From the NCBI RefSeq assembly GCF_900890425.1, contig NZ_CAAHFG010000001.1, positions 2,542,001 through 2,606,000 of the forward strand: a DNA stretch of 64,000 nt. The letters run 5' to 3'. A program made the position numbers and the translations under genes. The notes under the pieces are model-generated. The model had not been told where the DNA came from. It did no database searches and saw only the letters and a program-made list of their open reading frames with translations. The stretch is from Pontiella desulfatans. GTDB lineage: Bacteria > Verrucomicrobiota > Kiritimatiellia > Kiritimatiellales > Pontiellaceae. Of the stretch, positions 20,357 to 62,742 are shown piece by piece (position 1 is the first letter of the stretch; the number at the start of each line of letters is the position of its first letter).

Positions 20357-21316
20357 TCAAAAACGCCCGTTGAGCACTTGGTACTCCGCGATCGGCAACG
20401 CCGCCGGGCAGCCCTGCCTTTCACCTCCATGCGCAGAAATGAGATGGTTCAGCGCCGCATCAGCCATGCCATCATAATCCTGAACCGCAACAATCACCTT
20501 TTTGGCGGGAGCCGGCTCCCCCGGCCAGGCGTCAAAGCAGCCCGCAATCAATTCTTTTCCACAGAAAACATCTGCATTCGCAAAAACCAGATCCTGAATG
20601 GGGCCCTGCCAGGAAGCCAATACACCAATGCGTTTTTCCCCATGGATCAACTGCCCCCAACCATCGCCCTGCGATGCATCAATATAGCGCACACCGGCGG
20701 CTGTAATCGCCTTGGCAGCTCCGTCAAAACGCTGCTGCTCCACCGGATTTTTCTCCCGGTCAAAGGCCAGCACGAACTCGTCGACCCCTTCGTTGAGACA
20801 ATTTTTCACTAATCCTTCCGAAGCGACCGAGTTTTCAGTAGTAATCACGCAGACATCGAGGGAACCAACGGGCACATCGATAAAGATGATCGGGAAATTC
20901 ATATCCAACAACCGACGGACTGCAGACACATCCTTAATGTCACGCCGGTTGATTACCGCCCCTGCCGCCAACCCCGACCCCATATTATCAATCAACCGGT
21001 TAAAGTCCTCCTGGCGGCCATGATGCACGGCAATAGCCGTGTCGAACCCATTTTTCGCCGCAGTAATACTGGCGCGCTCCGCAATTTTCCAGTCAATCGT
21101 CGTTCCCAAGGCAGGGACGACAAACCAGAAAATATGGGAATGCCCCTGCTTCAACAACCGGGCCGCAAGATTCGGCTGGTAGCCCATCTTGCGCGCCACC
21201 TCCTGTACCCGCTCGGTGGTTGCCTTACTGATGCGCGGGTCACCCTTGATCGCCCGCGAAACCGTCGAGGCGTCCACCCCGCACATCTGCGCCAAATCCT
21301 TCAACTTAACTTTCAT
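20357..21316 (-). CDS. LacI-family transcriptional repressor
   Basis: 319 aa from the ATG at 21316, where the canonical helix-turn-helix begins (MKVKLKDLAQMCGVDASTVSRAIKG, then the hinge GYQPNLAARLL near 50-60). A longer in-frame start adds a hydrophobic stretch unlike the family and is rejected. The rest is a periplasmic-binding-protein-like effector domain (FWFVVPALG, VINRRDIKD, FPIIFIDVP). Such repressors usually release DNA when a sugar or sugar derivative binds. Identical LacI-type palindromes before three neighbouring units and a variant 10 bases before its own ATG suggest local control and autoregulation. The inducer is unknown; an oligosaccharide or rhamnose product is inferred. Confidence 0.93.
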   Translation of the reverse strand: MKVKLKDLAQMCGVDASTVSRAIKGDPRISKATTERVQEVARKMGYQPNLAARLLKQGHSHIFWFVVPALGTTIDWKIAERASITAAKNGFDTAIAVHHGRQEDFNRLIDNMGSGLAAGAVINRRDIKDVSAVRRLLDMNFPIIFIDVPVGSLDVCVITTENSVASEGLVKNCLNEGVDEFVLAFDREKNPVEQQRFDGAAKAITAAGVRYIDASQGDGWGQLIHGEKRIGVLASWQGPIQDLVFANADVFCGKELIAGCFDAWPGEPAPAKKVIVAVQDYDGMADAALNHLISAHGGERQGCPAALPIAEYQVLNGRF

Positions 21317-21325
21317 ACTTAAAAT

Positions 21326-21339
21326 TCCAATCGTTAGCA
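21326..21339. promoter_or_regulatory. Variant LacI-type operator before the repressor gene
   Basis: TCCAATCGTTAGCA on the plus strand, matching the half-reversed consensus at 11 of 14 positions and centred on CG. It lies 10 bases from the repressor ATG, where bound protein would block transcription or the ribosome site. Bases 21340-21514 upstream hold nothing else convincing except a 6-bp inverted repeat ATGCAA/TTGCAT near 21379-21393. Confidence 0.5.
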
Positions 21340-21514
21340 CAAGTTGTAGAATCACTAACAAGGACAAACAACACCATTATGCAATTTTTGCATGAAGCCT
21401 GAATAGAGGTCGGCCTGATTTCTTGCGGAACTTCGACTTCTCACCCCTGCTGTTTCTGAAAGCTGCTAACGGGCGACAAAGCCCAACCGGCCGAGGACAC
21501 CGGCACCGAATATT

Positions 21515-38072: not shown

Positions 38073-38144
38073 TGCGCTTAACCCCGATTTTCGGACCACC
38101 GGCTTAAGTGGAACCTGCGTCCTCAACATGGTACAAAAGGACGC

Positions 38145-38429
38145 ATGGAAATGGGAAGAAAACGAAGAACATTCACGGACAAGTTCAAGGCCAAGGTGGC
38201 GATTGAGGCCATCAAGGGCGTGAAGACATTGGCGGAGCTGGCATCGGAATATCAGGTCCATCCGAACCAGATTTCGGATTGGAAGAAGCAGTTGCTTTCG
38301 AATGCGCCGGATCTTTTTGCATCGGGGAAAAAGAAGCAGGCTCAAACGGAAGAAGAGCTTACGGCTCCACTTTACGAAGAGATCGGGCGTCTGAAGATGG
38401 ACGTGAAGTGGCTCGAAAAAAAGCTATGA
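38145..38429 (+). CDS. IS3-family OrfA (helix-turn-helix)
   Basis: 94 aa: GRKRRTFTDKFKAKVAIEAI, LAELASEYQVHPNQISDWK (helix-turn-helix) and a C-terminal leucine-zipper-like helix. It ends with GAA AAA AAG CTA TGA. The heptamer A AAA AAG (38417-38423) is a classic slippery site for the -1 frameshift that makes the OrfAB transposase. OrfA alone usually acts as a DNA-binding regulator. Confidence 0.93.
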   Translation: MEMGRKRRTFTDKFKAKVAIEAIKGVKTLAELASEYQVHPNQISDWKKQLLSNAPDLFASGKKKQAQTEEELTAPLYEEIGRLKMDVKWLEKKL

Positions 38430-39271
38430 GCCTGCCGCTTTCAACGCGCCGCAGCTGGGTGGAGCCCGGCACCGATTATTCGGTTCGGCGGCAGTGTAGG
38501 CTCGCAGGCGTCCCCAGATCGGGCTTCTACTACGACCCCGCCCCGGAAACGCCGGAGAACCTGCTTCTGATGCGTTTGATCGACGAGCAGTATCTCCGGC
38601 ATCCGGAGTTCGGCTATCCACGCATGACGGACTGGTTGCGTGATCAAGACTATGATGTCAATCACAAGCGGGTCGCCCGCCTCATGCAGCTGATGGGGAT
38701 TCAGGCCATCACGCCCGGTCCGCACACGAGCAAGCCCGCCCCGAGGCACAAGATCTACCCTTATTTGCTGCGCAATGTGGACATCGAACGGGTGAACCAG
38801 GTTTGGAGTACGGACATCACCTACATCCCGATGCGGCATGGATACATGTACCTGACCGCCGTAATCGACTGGTACAGCCGCTATGTGCTCGCCTGGGAGC
38901 TCTCAAGCACCATGGAGAGCACGTTCTGCGTTGATGCGCTGGAGCGTGCGCTGACGCAGGGGAATCCGGAGATATTCAACACCGACCAAGGAAGCCAGTT
39001 CACCTCGAACGCCTTCACCGGTGTCCTGTTAAACGAGAACATCACCATCAGCATGGACGGGCGAGGCCGGGCGTTGGACAACGTATTCATCGAACGACTG
39101 TGGTGGTCGGTGAAGTATGAGAAAATCTATCCCGCATGCTATGCCGACGGGCATGCGTTGCATCGGGGCCTTGACAGCTATTTTAAATATTACAACCACG
39201 AGAGGAAGCACAGCGCTCTGGACAAACGCACCCCCGCCGAGGTATTCATGGAAGGAGCAGTCAGAACATGA
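38426..39271 (+). CDS. IS3-family OrfB transposase (DDE)
   Basis: 281 aa from the ATG that overlaps the orfA stop (ATGA); the frame is also reached by -1 frameshifting. The integrase core has Asp130 (WSTDITYIP), Asp187 (NTDQGSQFTS) and Glu223 (FIERLWWSVK), all three DDE residues intact. It is full length. Bases 39272-39453 carry GC-rich repeats and the right end. Confidence 0.95.
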   Translation: MSLPLSTRRSWVEPGTDYSVRRQCRLAGVPRSGFYYDPAPETPENLLLMRLIDEQYLRHPEFGYPRMTDWLRDQDYDVNHKRVARLMQLMGIQAITPGPHTSKPAPRHKIYPYLLRNVDIERVNQVWSTDITYIPMRHGYMYLTAVIDWYSRYVLAWELSSTMESTFCVDALERALTQGNPEIFNTDQGSQFTSNAFTGVLLNENITISMDGRGRALDNVFIERLWWSVKYEKIYPACYADGHALHRGLDSYFKYYNHERKHSALDKRTPAEVFMEGAVRT

Positions 39272-39453
39272 TCGCAAGTGATGCCGTCGCTGCGCTCCGC
39301 CCTCGGCCCTCCGGGCCGCCCCTTCGGGGACGGGCTCCGCTCCGCGACGGCATCATGGAAGGGCGGCTCGTTGGCCGCCAGAACACGGAACAGGGAACCG
39401 CAGGTTCCACCTTAAGTTCACCGATCCGTGGTTTAAGATTGGGGGTAGGCGCA

Positions 39454-39792
39454 CATCAAGCCATTAAACTTAAATCCCAAAGCATCTACGGTGCCCGGGT
39501 TCCAAGTTGCAGTGTTCATGGATAAATAGCCAGTTACTGAGAGCGTGAATGTTCCCACCGGGCTATAAGAAAGCGTATCTCTGGTACCATCCAAGGCTCC
39601 TGAGTTAGCGGTGCCCGGAGTCATTGTGACCGGGTCCGAACTCAAATCTGAGAACGTGTAGGTAAAGGAACTACCATTCGCAGATAAGGCACTCCCCCCG
39701 GAAAAATCCAACAACACATCCGCCTGCGCAGCGCCTGCCATCCCCAGCAACAGAGCCGCCGTCATGATTTTTGTACTTATACTTTTTTTCAT
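39454..39792 (-). pseudogene. PEP-CTERM protein, 5' part (interrupted by IS3)
   Basis: 113 codons from the ATG at 39792 (GGAG 7 bases upstream): signal peptide MKKSISTKIMTAALLLGMAG and on to QADV, then SFTYTFSDLSSDPV...FKFNGLM, where the IS begins. Left alone it would add CAYPQS and stop within the IS. It continues in frame at 38072 once the element is removed. The TTGCGCCA direct-repeat site upstream and the intact start suggest the gene was active until recently. Confidence 0.88.
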
Positions 39793-39922
39793 CTTTTTTC
39801 TCCGTTTTTATGCTTTTTCGTTGCCTGACTGATTTCCAGCCACCAAAACACCGGTTCTCACCGAATCGGTATTCTGCAACACACGGATAACATAGCACAT
39901 CTACACATACAGGCTTTGCAGA

Positions 39923-39952
39923 TTGCGCCAAATTGTATGGTCATTTGCGCCA
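39923..39952. promoter_or_regulatory. TTGCGCCA direct-repeat site before the PEP-CTERM gene
   Basis: Two TTGCGCCA boxes with starts exactly 22 bp apart, about two helical turns. They lie in a stretch of about 45 bases that is conserved at 42788-42832 before the fibronectin-type protein. They are about 130 bases upstream of the ATG, where a regulator could bind. Confidence 0.5.
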
Positions 39953-40011
39953 AAAGCAGGGAACCCATGGATTTTCTCTTTTTGCAGAACCTTAAATACA
40001 CAATCATTTAT

Positions 40012-40135
40012 TACCACCCGCTTCGCTAGAGGGCACAGAGGCACGGAGTTTTGAGGTGCCGTTCATACGTTGTTCGTTGCTGTTCTGTGAACAGCCTCGC
40101 ATCGCGTCTCTGTGCCTCAGTGCTCTGTGGTGAAA
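40012..40135. repeat. Interspersed CACAGAGG dyad repeat
   Basis: TTACCAC..CGCTAGAG..CACAGAGGCACGGAG at the left is mirrored by CTCTGTGCCTCAGTG..CTCTGTGGT at the right. A close relative in the other orientation lies at 54632-54712. It is non-coding and fills most of the gap 39961-40167. Confidence 0.55.
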
Positions 40136-40167
40136 ACCTGCTACGCAGCCATTCGAACGAGCCAACC

Positions 40168-40198
40168 AAAAACGGCTGCGGCATGTGCCGCAGCCGTT
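40168..40198 (-). terminator. Rho-independent terminator of the fibronectin-type protein gene
   Basis: A perfect 12-bp stem AACGGCTGCGGC / GCCGCAGCCGTT with a 4-base loop, followed by a TTTTT run on the minus strand, 27 bases after the stop at 40225. Confidence 0.88.
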
Positions 40199-40224
40199 CT
40201 GTACCTAAAGACCACTGTTTTAGG

Positions 40225-42690
40225 TTATTTTTCAACCTCGAGGTTAATGAACAGCGTGTCGTCGACGATGCTGTAGGTGTTGGTCACCGGGGCATAGTCA
40301 TCGACGACCGGTCCGGTGCCCGTTACAGTATTGTTGTTGGTGCCGAACGGTCCAACGGTCAGACTCGTGGTGTCGATCAAACGGTAGACCAAAGCGCTGT
40401 CGACCGAGTTCGAGGCATAGACATAGGTAAACGTCGTGCCATCCTGGCTGAGGCTGGTCTGTCCTCTGTCGGCCGCGTTGGTCGGGTTGCCGTTGATGGC
40501 ATACTCGCCGAGGTTGCTGACGCCGTCGTCGTCGTCGTCGCCTTCCGGCCCTTCATTCAGACCATACTGATCCGCGAAGGCATTGTAGCCGCTCAAGATT
40601 TCAACAATATCGATCGTCAAGGTTCCCAGACGGTCCGCATTCATCCATGCGAAGGTGTCGCCGTCTTCAACCACGATCGCCCCTTCCTCACCGCCCGTCA
40701 GAACGGCCTCGCCGGCGCCCGAAACGCCCGTCGCCACATCGAAGTTGCGCCGGTACAAGGTACCGGCTCCGCCGGTGACCTCCTTGATGACCAGGCTGGT
40801 TCCGGCCGCGTTGGTGAACCCGCTCAGGTCGAACTGGATCAGGATGGCTTCGCCAGGATTAATGGCAAGGGACCCCGAGACATCCTGGACGCCCGTTCCG
40901 TCATCCGACGAGTTGAATAAGCCGGTGGTGCCTTCAAAGGTATTGGTCAGGTCGCCGCCGCTCCAGGTCAGCGGCTGGAAATCGTCGCTTCCGTCGTTCA
41001 AGGGTCCGTCATCACTGTAGGCGCGCCCTTTGATCACGATCTTCCCGGTGGCGGTGGACACCGTGAAACTGTCCTTGGCCGCAGAGGAGAGGCCGGCCCC
41101 GCCGAACGAGGCAGAGGAGTTGGCATAGGAGACCGGATCATTTCCGAGATCGCTCAAGGTGATGGTCTGCGTCCCGCCGGCTCCGCCGCTTGCGCTCCGG
41201 AAGTCGATCAGTACCGGGCCGATGGCCGGTTCCGCGGCGACTGCCGCGCTCAGGGCGGATTCGTTGGCACCGGTGTCCAGTTGCGAAACTTTGTAGTAGT
41301 AAACCACGTTGTTCGTCACATCGTTGTCGGTGTAGGCGTTGGTCGTCACAGTGGCAATATTCGAGTAGTTGACACCCGACTCGAGGCTGCGCCAGACGTT
41401 GAAGCTGGCGAACAGGTCATCAATCGAGGCATCCCAATCCAAAGCTACCTCCTGATTGTCAGGCACCGCCGCCAGGCCTGTCGGCACGGGGACGGCCGGC
41501 GTGGCGGAAACTTCCGCACTCAGGGCGGACAGGTTGCTGTTGGAGTCCACCTGCTGAACTACGTAGTAGTTGGCGGTGCCGTTGATCAAGTTGGTGTGCG
41601 TATAGGCGCTGGCCGTCAGGTTGGAGGCGATGACCACGTAGTTCGTACCCGACTCTTCGCTGGACCAGACCATGAAGCTGGCGAACAGGGGATCGGTCGA
41701 GTTGTTCCAGTCCAACGCCACCTTCGTATTGAGCGGCGTTGCCGACAGGCCCGCCGGTACGGGAATGGACGGCGTGCCCGAAACCATGTTGCCGAAAGCG
41801 GTTTCGACACTGTTGGTGCCGACGGCTTTTGCCTTGTAGTAGTAAGTCACCCCGTTGGTGACAGCCAGATCGGTGTATGCGCTGTCGACCGGACTGGCCA
41901 GAAGCGCGAAATCCACTTCGTTGGAGGTCAGCGAGCGGTAGAGATCGTAGTGGTCGAGCATAATCGGGTTCGGATCGTCGTCCCAGTTGAGCGTAAGCCG
42001 GGAGTTGTTCGGGGTGATCGCGAGCTGTGGGGGCACGTTGGTCGACGGCAGGTCAACCACATCGACGGTCAGTCTGGTCACTCTGAAGCCTCCAGCAACT
42101 CCGGCATAGTACAGGCGATAACTGCTGTTCAGCACCTGCCAGTCTCCAAAACTGCCGGCTCCTTTGCTTACTCCATATTTGGACTGAACCACTTTATTCG
42201 CATTGGTATCGACGAGCACCCAGTCGCCGGAACTGCCGGACGCATTTGCAGTAGCTGTGGAAACCAGCGTGAGCACCGATCCGGCCTGCAACCCGCTCAC
42301 ATCGAAGTCAATAATCATCACTTCGCCTGAATTGATCTTGTTATCGTTGACTCCGCCAATATCACCCGCATCATAACCAACGTTCTGTCCGTACGTGAAA
42401 TTTGTCGCATAACTGTTAAAATCCGCGTGGCTTGCTTGGGCATTTGCCCTGCTCCACCCCGTGGCCCCGGTAAGGGTCCACGAAATGACATCGCCCGCCT
42501 GGGCATCGGTAAACGAGCCGGTGTTGGTCGCTATGCCGCCCGCCACTGTTACGTTTGTGCCGTCATAACCAAAGCTATATAACTGGCTCACGTCTCCTGA
42601 GCTACCCACAGTATACGTGGCGATTTGCGCCTGCGCGCCGATCGTTGTGGCCAACAGGGCCGCGAATAGTGCTATTCCTTTTATTTTCAT
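40225..42690 (-). CDS. Secreted protein with three fibronectin type III domains
   Basis: 821 aa. Signal peptide (1-21), an N-terminal beta domain (22-220), three fibronectin type III repeats (about 225-500; each with LDW and YYYK/YYVV strands), a second beta domain (about 505-690), an acidic calcium-loop-like GDDDDDGVSNLGEYAINGNP (about 700) and the alternative tail VYRLIDTTSL...LFINLEVEK. No catalytic motif is seen. It ends at a strong terminator and shares an upstream direct-repeat site with the split PEP-CTERM gene. A surface scaffold or adhesion role is inferred. Confidence 0.8.
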   Translation of the reverse strand: MKIKGIALFAALLATTIGAQAQIATYTVGSSGDVSQLYSFGYDGTNVTVAGGIATNTGSFTDAQAGDVISWTLTGATGWSRANAQASHADFNSYATNFTYGQNVGYDAGDIGGVNDNKINSGEVMIIDFDVSGLQAGSVLTLVSTATANASGSSGDWVLVDTNANKVVQSKYGVSKGAGSFGDWQVLNSSYRLYYAGVAGGFRVTRLTVDVVDLPSTNVPPQLAITPNNSRLTLNWDDDPNPIMLDHYDLYRSLTSNEVDFALLASPVDSAYTDLAVTNGVTYYYKAKAVGTNSVETAFGNMVSGTPSIPVPAGLSATPLNTKVALDWNNSTDPLFASFMVWSSEESGTNYVVIASNLTASAYTHTNLINGTANYYVVQQVDSNSNLSALSAEVSATPAVPVPTGLAAVPDNQEVALDWDASIDDLFASFNVWRSLESGVNYSNIATVTTNAYTDNDVTNNVVYYYKVSQLDTGANESALSAAVAAEPAIGPVLIDFRSASGGAGGTQTITLSDLGNDPVSYANSSASFGGAGLSSAAKDSFTVSTATGKIVIKGRAYSDDGPLNDGSDDFQPLTWSGGDLTNTFEGTTGLFNSSDDGTGVQDVSGSLAINPGEAILIQFDLSGFTNAAGTSLVIKEVTGGAGTLYRRNFDVATGVSGAGEAVLTGGEEGAIVVEDGDTFAWMNADRLGTLTIDIVEILSGYNAFADQYGLNEGPEGDDDDDGVSNLGEYAINGNPTNAADRGQTSLSQDGTTFTYVYASNSVDSALVYRLIDTTSLTVGPFGTNNNTVTGTGPVVDDYAPVTNTYSIVDDTLFINLEVEK

Positions 42691-42799
42691 CTGGTTCTCC
42701 TCGTCTCCGATTTCTCATTACTGGGCAGGCTCTCCACAAACCTGTTCCACCCATAACTTGATAAAACGTAACACTAAACGAAAACAGCGGCTTGGCGGA

Positions 42800-42829
42800 T
42801 TGTGCCAATTTTTATGGCCATTTGCGCCA
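42800..42829. promoter_or_regulatory. TTGYGCCA direct-repeat site before the fibronectin-type gene
   Basis: TTGTGCCA (42800) and TTGCGCCA (42822), starts 22 bp apart as in the site at 39923, with the bases between and beside them also conserved. It lies about 110-140 bases upstream of the ATG at 42690. Confidence 0.5.
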
Positions 42830-42880
42830 CAACCCGAAAACATCCCCTTGAACCTGCATATCATTATCCTAAAAAATGCA

Positions 42881-43704: not shown

Positions 43705-43983
43705 TTATGGGTTCGTAATCCTCAAACGGCAAAAGTTCTGAGTTTCGTCCGCAGGAACCGAATGGATAACTTCATCGAAATCCCCTGCCGAGGTATCCAC
43801 ATTGTCCGTACCACCGGCGGGCACCCATCCGCCGGTTGTGAGATTCGTGGTGGATTCCACCACATAATCAAGGCCGGAGTCGTCGTTCCGTGCGCGGTAC
43901 AGATAGGAGAGCGTCCCGCCACCGTGCTCAAGAGAAGGAACATAGCCGACAATGGCTGCAGCTCGACAAGCTTGGTCTAAGCT
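43705..43983 (-). pseudogene. C-terminal remnant of a large secreted protein
   Basis: The frame runs from the IS630 fragment edge (LDQACRAAAIVGYVPSLEHG) through DYVVESTTNL..GGWVPAG to QNFCRLRITNP and a stop at 43705. This is the same tail that ends six full-length secreted proteins in the window. The rest of the gene is gone. No start codon with ribosome site fits, so it is called a remnant. Confidence 0.65.
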
Positions 43984-43987
43984 TTAA

Positions 43988-44593
43988 AAAAAAACGCTTC
44001 ACGCCAGCGAGCAAGATCGTGAAGATGTTCGTCTGGCGCGGCTGATCTGGAAAGCACAGCAACCGGAATGGCCGGCCGCTATGCTGGTATTCATCGACGA
44101 ACCCGGCCTGAATACCAAAATGACCCGAGGATATGGGCGGGCTCCGCTGTCAAAGCGTTGCATTTGCAGGGTTCCGCACGGCCACTGGCACACCAATACT
44201 TTCATTGCCGCGCTCCGGATTGATGGTCTGCATGCTCCGTGGTTGCTGGACGGGCCGATGAACGGGCATGCGTTCCTTGTTTATGTCAGACAGGTACTTG
44301 CGCCGGAACTTCAAGAGGGTGACCGTGTTGTTTGCAACAATCTTTCATCCCACCATGCCCCTGGAGTTCGCGAAGCCTTGGAGGAAGTCGGGGCTGAGCT
44401 GATGTATCTACCTCCCTACAGCCCGGATCTGAATCCCATTGAAATGGCCTTTTCAAAACTCAAGGCATTACTTCGCCAGCATATTGCAAGAGAGTACAGC
44501 GAGCTTTTTGATGCGCTCTCCGAAATCCTGCCAAGTTTTACAGCCGCACAGTGCTGGAACCTAATCCGTCATGCAGATTATGCGACAAATTAA
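43988..44593 (+). pseudogene. IS630-family transposase fragment, active site damaged
   Basis: 202 codons without the N-terminal helix-turn-helix: ..ASEQDREDVRLARLIWKAQQ, then the DDE_3 core with the first Asp (VFIDEPG), VVCNNLSSHH and YLPPYSPDLNPIEMAFSKLK with the Glu. The middle motif is normally VxxDNLxxH; the Asp has become Asn (AAC). The frame opens after a TAA in an A9 run. It is thus truncated and probably inactive. An ATG at 44081 gives a 170-aa frame. Confidence 0.85.
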
Positions 44594-62097: not shown

Positions 62098-62742
62098 TTA
62101 GTGGAACCCGGTGAGTTTGGCGATGGCTTCCGTGCGGGAATGAACGTGGAGTTTTTCGTATATGCGGCGGATGTAGGTGTGAACGGTGTGGATGGAAATA
62201 TCCAGTTCGTCGGCAATCTCCTTGTAGAGCCGCCCGCGGGCGAGCAGATTCAGCACCTGCGTTTCCCGCTCCGAGAGTTCGTCAAGTTCGCTCGGGAGCT
62301 TGTTGCCATTCGGTTTCTGGAAAGACTGCACCACCTTTCGCGCAATGGTGCTGTCCATGGGCGACCCACCCGACGCCGCATCCTCCAAGGCCAGGAGAAG
62401 GTCGGTTACAATGGTACGCTTGAGCAGATAGCCGACCGCTCCGACTGCCAGTGCCTCAAAGATGTATTCCGCCTCGTCATAGACCGTCAGGATCACAAAG
62501 TTCGTCGCGGGCAACGATGGCTTGAGTTGCCGGATGCATTCGATGCCGTTCGCTCCCGGCATATTGATATCCATAAGTACGATATCCGGGGCGTCGGCCG
62601 GAAGCCCGGCAATGGCTTCCTCGGCATTGGGATAGAGGTTGAGGCAGGAGAACCGATCCTTTTCCTCGCTAATCAGCTCGGAAATCAGTTCCCGTGTTCC
62701 GCGGTCGTCGTCGACAATGCAGACGGTTATGTTTTTTTTCAT
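62098..62742 (-). CDS. NarL/LuxR-type response regulator
   Basis: 214 aa. Receiver domain (1-120) with acidic pair Asp11/Asp12, phosphoacceptor Asp58 (VLMDINMPG), Thr86 and Lys108. The C-terminal LuxR-type helix-turn-helix (about 150-212: [38 protein letters not shown]) binds DNA. The ATG overlaps the kinase stop by 4 bases. When phosphorylated it probably activates the glycan genes carrying the dyad sites at 49381, 52267, 58951 and 62069; this link is inferred. Confidence 0.95.

Follow-up and report, generated by a model that had tools for sequence, protein, structure and literature searches.

Paired boxes with a 22-bp period upstream of two secreted-protein genes in Pontiella desulfatans: a likely XylR-type operator

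Operators made of two direct repeats next to the -35 element are known from several regulators. In the XylS system, the cited part of the source places two direct repeats upstream of the -35 element of Pm, the second overlapping that element by two bases (PMC4225500). For MtlR, the section on the Pseudomonas fluorescens mtlE promoter gives 15-bp blocks from -72 to -58 and from -50 to -36 (PMC4514859), and for XylRA of Vibrio the corresponding section describes two direct repeats before several promoters of the xylan locus (PMC12125979). Genomes of the type studied here contain very many sulfatases and glycosidases, the control of which is little described; the word AraC is absent from the available text of two Pontiella papers (PMC7356697, PMC10880615), and a literature search combining Kiritimatiellota, AraC and sulfatase found no paper. 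Here we describe a block of two boxes that stands before two secreted-protein genes in a 64,000-nucleotide stretch of the Pontiella desulfatans genome (the window). Judged from the letters of the block and of related sites, it very probably serves as operator for an activator of the AraC/XylS family, with the XylR-type subfamily as the likeliest source.

The block and its two genes

The copies of the block, the genes behind them and an inserted element have the following window positions.

39911..39952, minus strand: candidate operator copy 1, 42 nt, with box 1 TGGCGCAAAT at 39943-39952 and box 2 TTGGCGCAA at 39923-39931
42788..42829, minus strand: candidate operator copy 2, 42 nt, with box 1 TGGCGCAAAT at 42820-42829 and box 2 TTGGCACAA at 42800-42808
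39433..39792, minus strand: 5' part of the gene for a secreted PEP-CTERM-type protein (119 aa, signal peptide), cut by IS3
38108..39410, plus strand: IS3-family insertion with terminal inverted repeats and a 5-bp duplication, CTTAA
37668..38107, minus strand: 3' part of the split gene, with the PEP-CTERM signal at its end
40225..42690, minus strand: gene for a secreted 821-aa protein with fibronectin-type-like repeats

An earlier note on this DNA had reported two TTGYGCCA boxes 22 bp apart before both genes. Both pairs were recovered, at 39923-39952 and 42800-42829, with the spacing exact (0 pairs expected in the window from 100 shuffles). The boxes themselves stand; the direction in which they had been read needs correction because the genes lie on the minus strand, where the motif reads as TGGCRCAA repeats. 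In the gene direction the block is TGGCGCAAAT-N11-TTGGCRCAA, the full copies being TGGCGCAAATGACCATACAATTTGGCGCAATCTGCAAAGCC (copy 1) and TGGCGCAAATGGCCATAAAAATTGGCACAATCCGCCAAGCC (copy 2). The pattern TTGYGCCA-N14-TTGYGCCA matched twice in the whole genome (8,658,305 bases), both times in the window, against 0 matches of the reversed-pattern control, and a search allowing up to 3 mismatches across the 30-bp block still returned just these 2 places. Single TTGYGCCA boxes were not enriched (11 vs 7.2 expected), and the significance is confined to the pair.

A repeat finder reported the window copies as a 53-nt repeat at 79%. Compared in 20-nt steps, they are identical at 34 of the first 40 positions (18/20 and 16/20), and the likeness spans about 42 bp only, the flanks agreeing at 3-8 of 20 positions per step, near chance. 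Because identity is restricted in this way, we regard the block as a common operator and not as a duplicated region. The N11 spacers of the two copies are alike at 8 of 11 positions, a likeness that family members (below) do not require. Both copies are intergenic, starting 160 bp (copy 1) and 139 bp (copy 2) upstream of ATG codons, and with no further copies present the block does not occur chiefly in repeats or within genes.

The PEP-CTERM gene, which the earlier note had called split, is interrupted by the IS3-family element at 38108-39410 with its CTTAA duplication; the promoter at copy 1 now drives only the 119-aa stub. An IS630-family transposase remnant lies upstream of the second gene, at 43967-44593 of the window. 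The 821-aa protein had no Pfam match at E 0.1. That the two genes otherwise share little is largely true, with the reservation that the first protein has a weak local similarity to residues 493-530 of the second (43% over 40 aa, E 0.001 in a single comparison). P0001 had no homologue among 29 relatives and P0002 had partial ones only, making phylogenetic footprinting of the window promoters impossible.

The exact window pair is not conserved in relatives. The strict pattern occurs in 11 of 194 genomes, own genome included; the ten other genomes hold 11 matches, against 9 control matches over all 194, and the 27 other genomes of the genus hold none. Searching GTDB genomes with TGGCRCAAATN11TTGGCRCAM gave 58 stretches, which we take to be chance occurrences: they come from scattered phyla, many of them fall within ORFs and just 3 have an AraC-type gene nearby. 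The exception is L196 (same contig as genome G037), where a window-type site lines up with a degenerate stretch of AraC DNA-binding sequence and a transporter gene. When 319 upstream regions were searched de novo for exact 9-bp direct repeats, there was no general excess at 22 bp (2 at 22, 13 at 21 and 16 at 15).

A wider family of sites and its promoter geometry

By sequence and position, the block belongs to a larger promoter family in this genome and its relatives with the pattern T(T/G)NCGCAAAT-N11-ATTGCGCA and the same 22-bp period; the window box 2 (TTGGCRCAA) differs from the family box 2 (ATTGCGCA). With loosened letters and fixed spacing, the own genome gave 32 matches vs 5 in the control, many of them reading TTGCGCAAT and lying inside contig 1 (C1), 3.68-3.88 Mb. 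The pattern of this C1 group gave 20 match rows, representing 16 distinct places and including window copy 1, vs 0 control rows.

Seventeen sites were examined: 2 from the window, 12 from the cluster and 3 elsewhere. A same-strand gene of at least 150 aa begins 94-310 bp downstream of 16 of them (in a second count, of 11 of the 12 listed cluster sites and of the 3 elsewhere); window copy 1 is the sole exception, its 119-aa gene being under the length cut and its polarity having been read by hand. The sites point at the gene start, mostly from 95-160 bp away, and keep a fixed polarity toward the regulated gene. Eight of the 17 also have an ORF starting on their other side, in most cases lacking a suitable ribosome site, and a long overlapping ORF contains 2 of the 17. 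The Pfam-scanned targets were one sulfatase, two DUF2264 proteins and DUF4838 or DUF4955 proteins, with no or weak matches for the rest. A general link to PEP-CTERM or exopolysaccharide genes, for which the earlier note had proposed a check, is not upheld by these other members, which precede sulfatase, DUF2264, DUF4838, DUF4955 and unnamed genes; the exact block is found twice in the genome, once before a PEP-CTERM gene, and of the window genes only one carries a PEP-CTERM end. Two loci from other genomes of the same class, L128 (G133) and L129 (G182), have paired palindromic TTGCGCAA boxes on both strands in a different arrangement.

The family sites have a common promoter layout. Averaged over the 17 sites, including the 2 of the window, and with offsets counted from the start of box 2, the -10 score has a single sharp peak at offset 40 (-0.03, with -1.86 beside it and mostly -3 to -7 elsewhere), and the -35 score peaks at offset 17 (-0.02, the next value being -0.82). 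The summed -10 score at offsets 37-42 was reached by 0 of 5000 shuffles in a test that is independent of the boxes, as the sites were found by box pattern, and for which the offset window was picked after the peak had been seen; the doubtful sites L090 and L092 were included here and left out of the profiles. The -35 hexamer starts 17 bp past the start of box 2 and the -10 hexamer another 23 bp on. The peak at offset 17 puts the -35 hexamer immediately after the second 17-bp half-site, and this placement is the class II geometry of AraC/XylS-family activators. The corresponding hexamers of the window are as follows.

39889..39894, minus strand: putative -10 hexamer TATGTT of promoter 1, at offset 37, about 3 bp nearer than the family optimum
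42765..42770, minus strand: putative -10 hexamer TACGTT of promoter 2, at offset 38; TTTTAT at offset 42 scores higher

The -10 fit of the window copies is 1-3 bp off the family optimum and their -35 hexamers are poor, as would be expected of activator-dependent promoters. The suggestion that two protomers sit on one DNA face, about two helical turns apart, is well supported by the wider family, in which the 22-bp period, the fixed polarity and the abutment on -35 recur at many related sites.

Profiles built without the window were used on the two copies. A profile from 28 non-window sites of the own and other genomes ranked copy 1 first (25.7) and copy 2 second (13.8) in the 168 kb round the window, the next place scoring 9.6 and the reversed control 8.3. 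Model R1, built from 38 non-window sites, found 13 places in the own genome at E <0.001, followed by copy 1 in 14th position at E 0.0225 (E 0.00017 when the window was searched alone); copy 2 was absent from the 26 places found genome-wide up to E 10 and also from the window-only search. Copy 1 is thus a good family member, and the case for copy 2 comes mainly from its likeness to copy 1.

XylR-type regulators and alternative readings

Of 55 HTH_18 matches in the own genome, ten fall in proteins that are XylR-type as judged by length and sequence, and Pfam confirmed PBP1_XylR, Peripla_BP_3 and HTH_18 in two XylR-type candidates. Two related XylR groups, type I (C1:3703867-3705027) and type II (C1:3877043-3878278), both lie within the site cluster, and in other genomes, for members of these types, a site immediately follows or precedes the regulator gene. 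Using a profile of the 13 own sites only and up to 8 kb on each side, sites scoring at least 15 were found in 8 of 9 type I/II neighbourhoods (5 of the 9 coming from four genomes whose contigs were noticed for holding a site) vs 0 of 13 other XylR-type genes, with Fisher values of 2.8e-5 at cut-offs 15 and 18 and 0.011 at cut-off 12; reversed controls reached 15 in 2 of 22. Without the loci fetched because they bore a site, the result was 4/5 vs 0/13, G018 being counted as fetched by homology though the same contig had a pattern match 14 kb away. There are exceptions: no site occurs at the type I locus of G021, and the own-genome sites C3:1218903 and C4:1040887 have XylR-type genes from other groups at distances of 1.6 and 6 kb. 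The larger promoter family is associated with one XylR clade.

Spacing follows the same division. Where loci had been retrieved by XylR homology, every box pair in the type I/II ones (9/9) has the 22-bp period and none of 51 other spacings was seen, while the other XylR loci lack a pair; in the pool that includes pattern-chosen loci, the period holds for 30 of 31 pairs. Box 1 reads TGNCGCAAAT at type I sites and NTGCGCAAAT at type II sites, and box 1 of the window copies, TGGCGCAAAT, has the type I form. Copy 1 scores 16.9 against type I and 12.8 against type II, and copy 2 scores 9.2 and 9.5, favouring neither, so that assignment to one XylR group is not firm. Genome G037 has both a type I gene and a window-type site, and this site scores 17.9 (type I) and 8.6 (type II). 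There is no AraC-family gene in the window; the nearest, about 76 kb away, is from an XylR group that lacks these sites. In the divergent promoter of the XylR gene closest to the window (C1:2660660-2661835) there is an imperfect CGCAA pair with 21-bp spacing, and the stretch examined contains no family site.

Some further features were noted. Two paralogous proteins of about 705 aa starting FKIILRYGLDPFNGLEENL are each encoded behind a family site (L074:10130-12247, and L107 at about 8300, C3:86298); the first has no Pfam match and directly follows a type I XylR gene. TGCACGATC is repeated with a 21-bp period just before the AraC-family gene C1:3873770-3874576 (R2 region, L082), possibly as an autoregulatory site. 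ORFs of repeated RAPRVGRD/RAPCGAR units at G000:C1:3887111-3890477 (L083), beside a Cas-like gene at 3893100, are what we take to be, probably, a CRISPR array read as protein.

The window sites have the architecture of the XylR-type regulon found elsewhere in the genome. Since no regulator is linked to the window copies, we file the block as no more than a likely XylR-type operator; the sites could be part of the regulon at contig 1, 3.68-3.88 Mb, or answer to an unlinked paralogue, and the third regulator suggested in the earlier note may or may not exist. Regulators of this type combine a LacI-like sugar-sensing domain with an AraC DNA-binding domain. On binding sugar through its sensor, such a regulator would occupy, as a dimer, the two 17-bp half-sites, set with a 22-bp period on one DNA face, and the PEP-CTERM-type and FN3-like genes would be turned on together. 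With the second half-site ending at -35, the promoter-proximal protomer could contact RNA polymerase (class II activation). Binding at the window sites is inferred here, and so are activation, the sugar signal and which protein is responsible. It is possible, if somewhat doubtful, that a distinct unlinked XylR-type activator with its own box (TGGCRCAA twice) ties both window genes to the sugar signal of the neighbouring rhamnosidase/sulfatase cluster; it would then be one among several paralogous regulators with a common promoter geometry, told apart by a few letters of their boxes.

Among the alternatives, the one that fares best is that another AraC-family or a two-component regulator with a preference for similar tandem boxes reads the site. 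We consider this unlikely: box 1 agrees with the XylR-linked sites, as does the promoter geometry, although box 2 and the spacer differ from those of the XylR family, the genome offers 55 HTH_18 candidates and a Y_Y_Y histidine kinase lies at 62739, at the right end of the window. It is improbable that the copies are a recent local duplication or a mobile short repeat with no regulatory role. Such an origin would suit two copies only 2.9 kb apart with similar spacers and IS elements close by, but not the sharp drop in identity at the operator edges (flanks 3-8/20), its end where -35 should be, or the top ranking of both copies by a profile from unrelated genes and genomes. That a LacI-family or other dimer uses each single box as its operator, two dimers lying 22 bp apart, has very little probability. 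It draws on TTGCGCAA, the reading of many family boxes, being its own reverse complement and on a LacI-family gene in the window (20357-21367); against this, neither the window boxes (TGGCGCAAAT) nor the type I boxes (TGTCGCAAAT) are palindromic, polarity toward the gene is fixed and the sites track XylR-type genes. A sigma-54 promoter, suggested by the resemblance of TTGGCACAA in copy 2 to the -24 element of what we take to be the consensus, TGGCAC...TTGC, is refuted by the absence of TTGC at the required distance in both copies and by the vegetative-type -10 and -35 elements that fit the family.

Comparison with described operators

We conclude that the window block is a real and specific operator of a known kind, for which the evidence is good as regards geometry and fair as regards the regulator family. 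A defined operator with a matching regulator clade offers a way to predict genes that respond together, and the window and family sites are a clean case for how paralogous XylR-type proteins divide related sites among themselves.

XylS at Pm is alike in having two direct repeats before -35, the second touching that element; in the cited part of the source the XylS boxes are TGCAN6GGNTA with a 2-base overlap of -35, whereas the window family has another sequence and abuts -35 (PMC4225500). MtlR at mtlE shares the 22-bp period ending at -35, but its sequence differs from that of the window family and a LacI-like sensor is not reported for MtlR in the section cited (PMC4514859). XylR of E. coli and XylRA of Vibrio, as covered in the section cited, also have two direct repeats before polysaccharide-use genes and share their domain order with the candidate regulators; their repeats are AT-rich, in contrast to the TGNCGCAAAT-like family here, and the regulators are distant (PMC12125979). 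By analogy, the window element appears to work like the operators of XylS, MtlR and XylRA.
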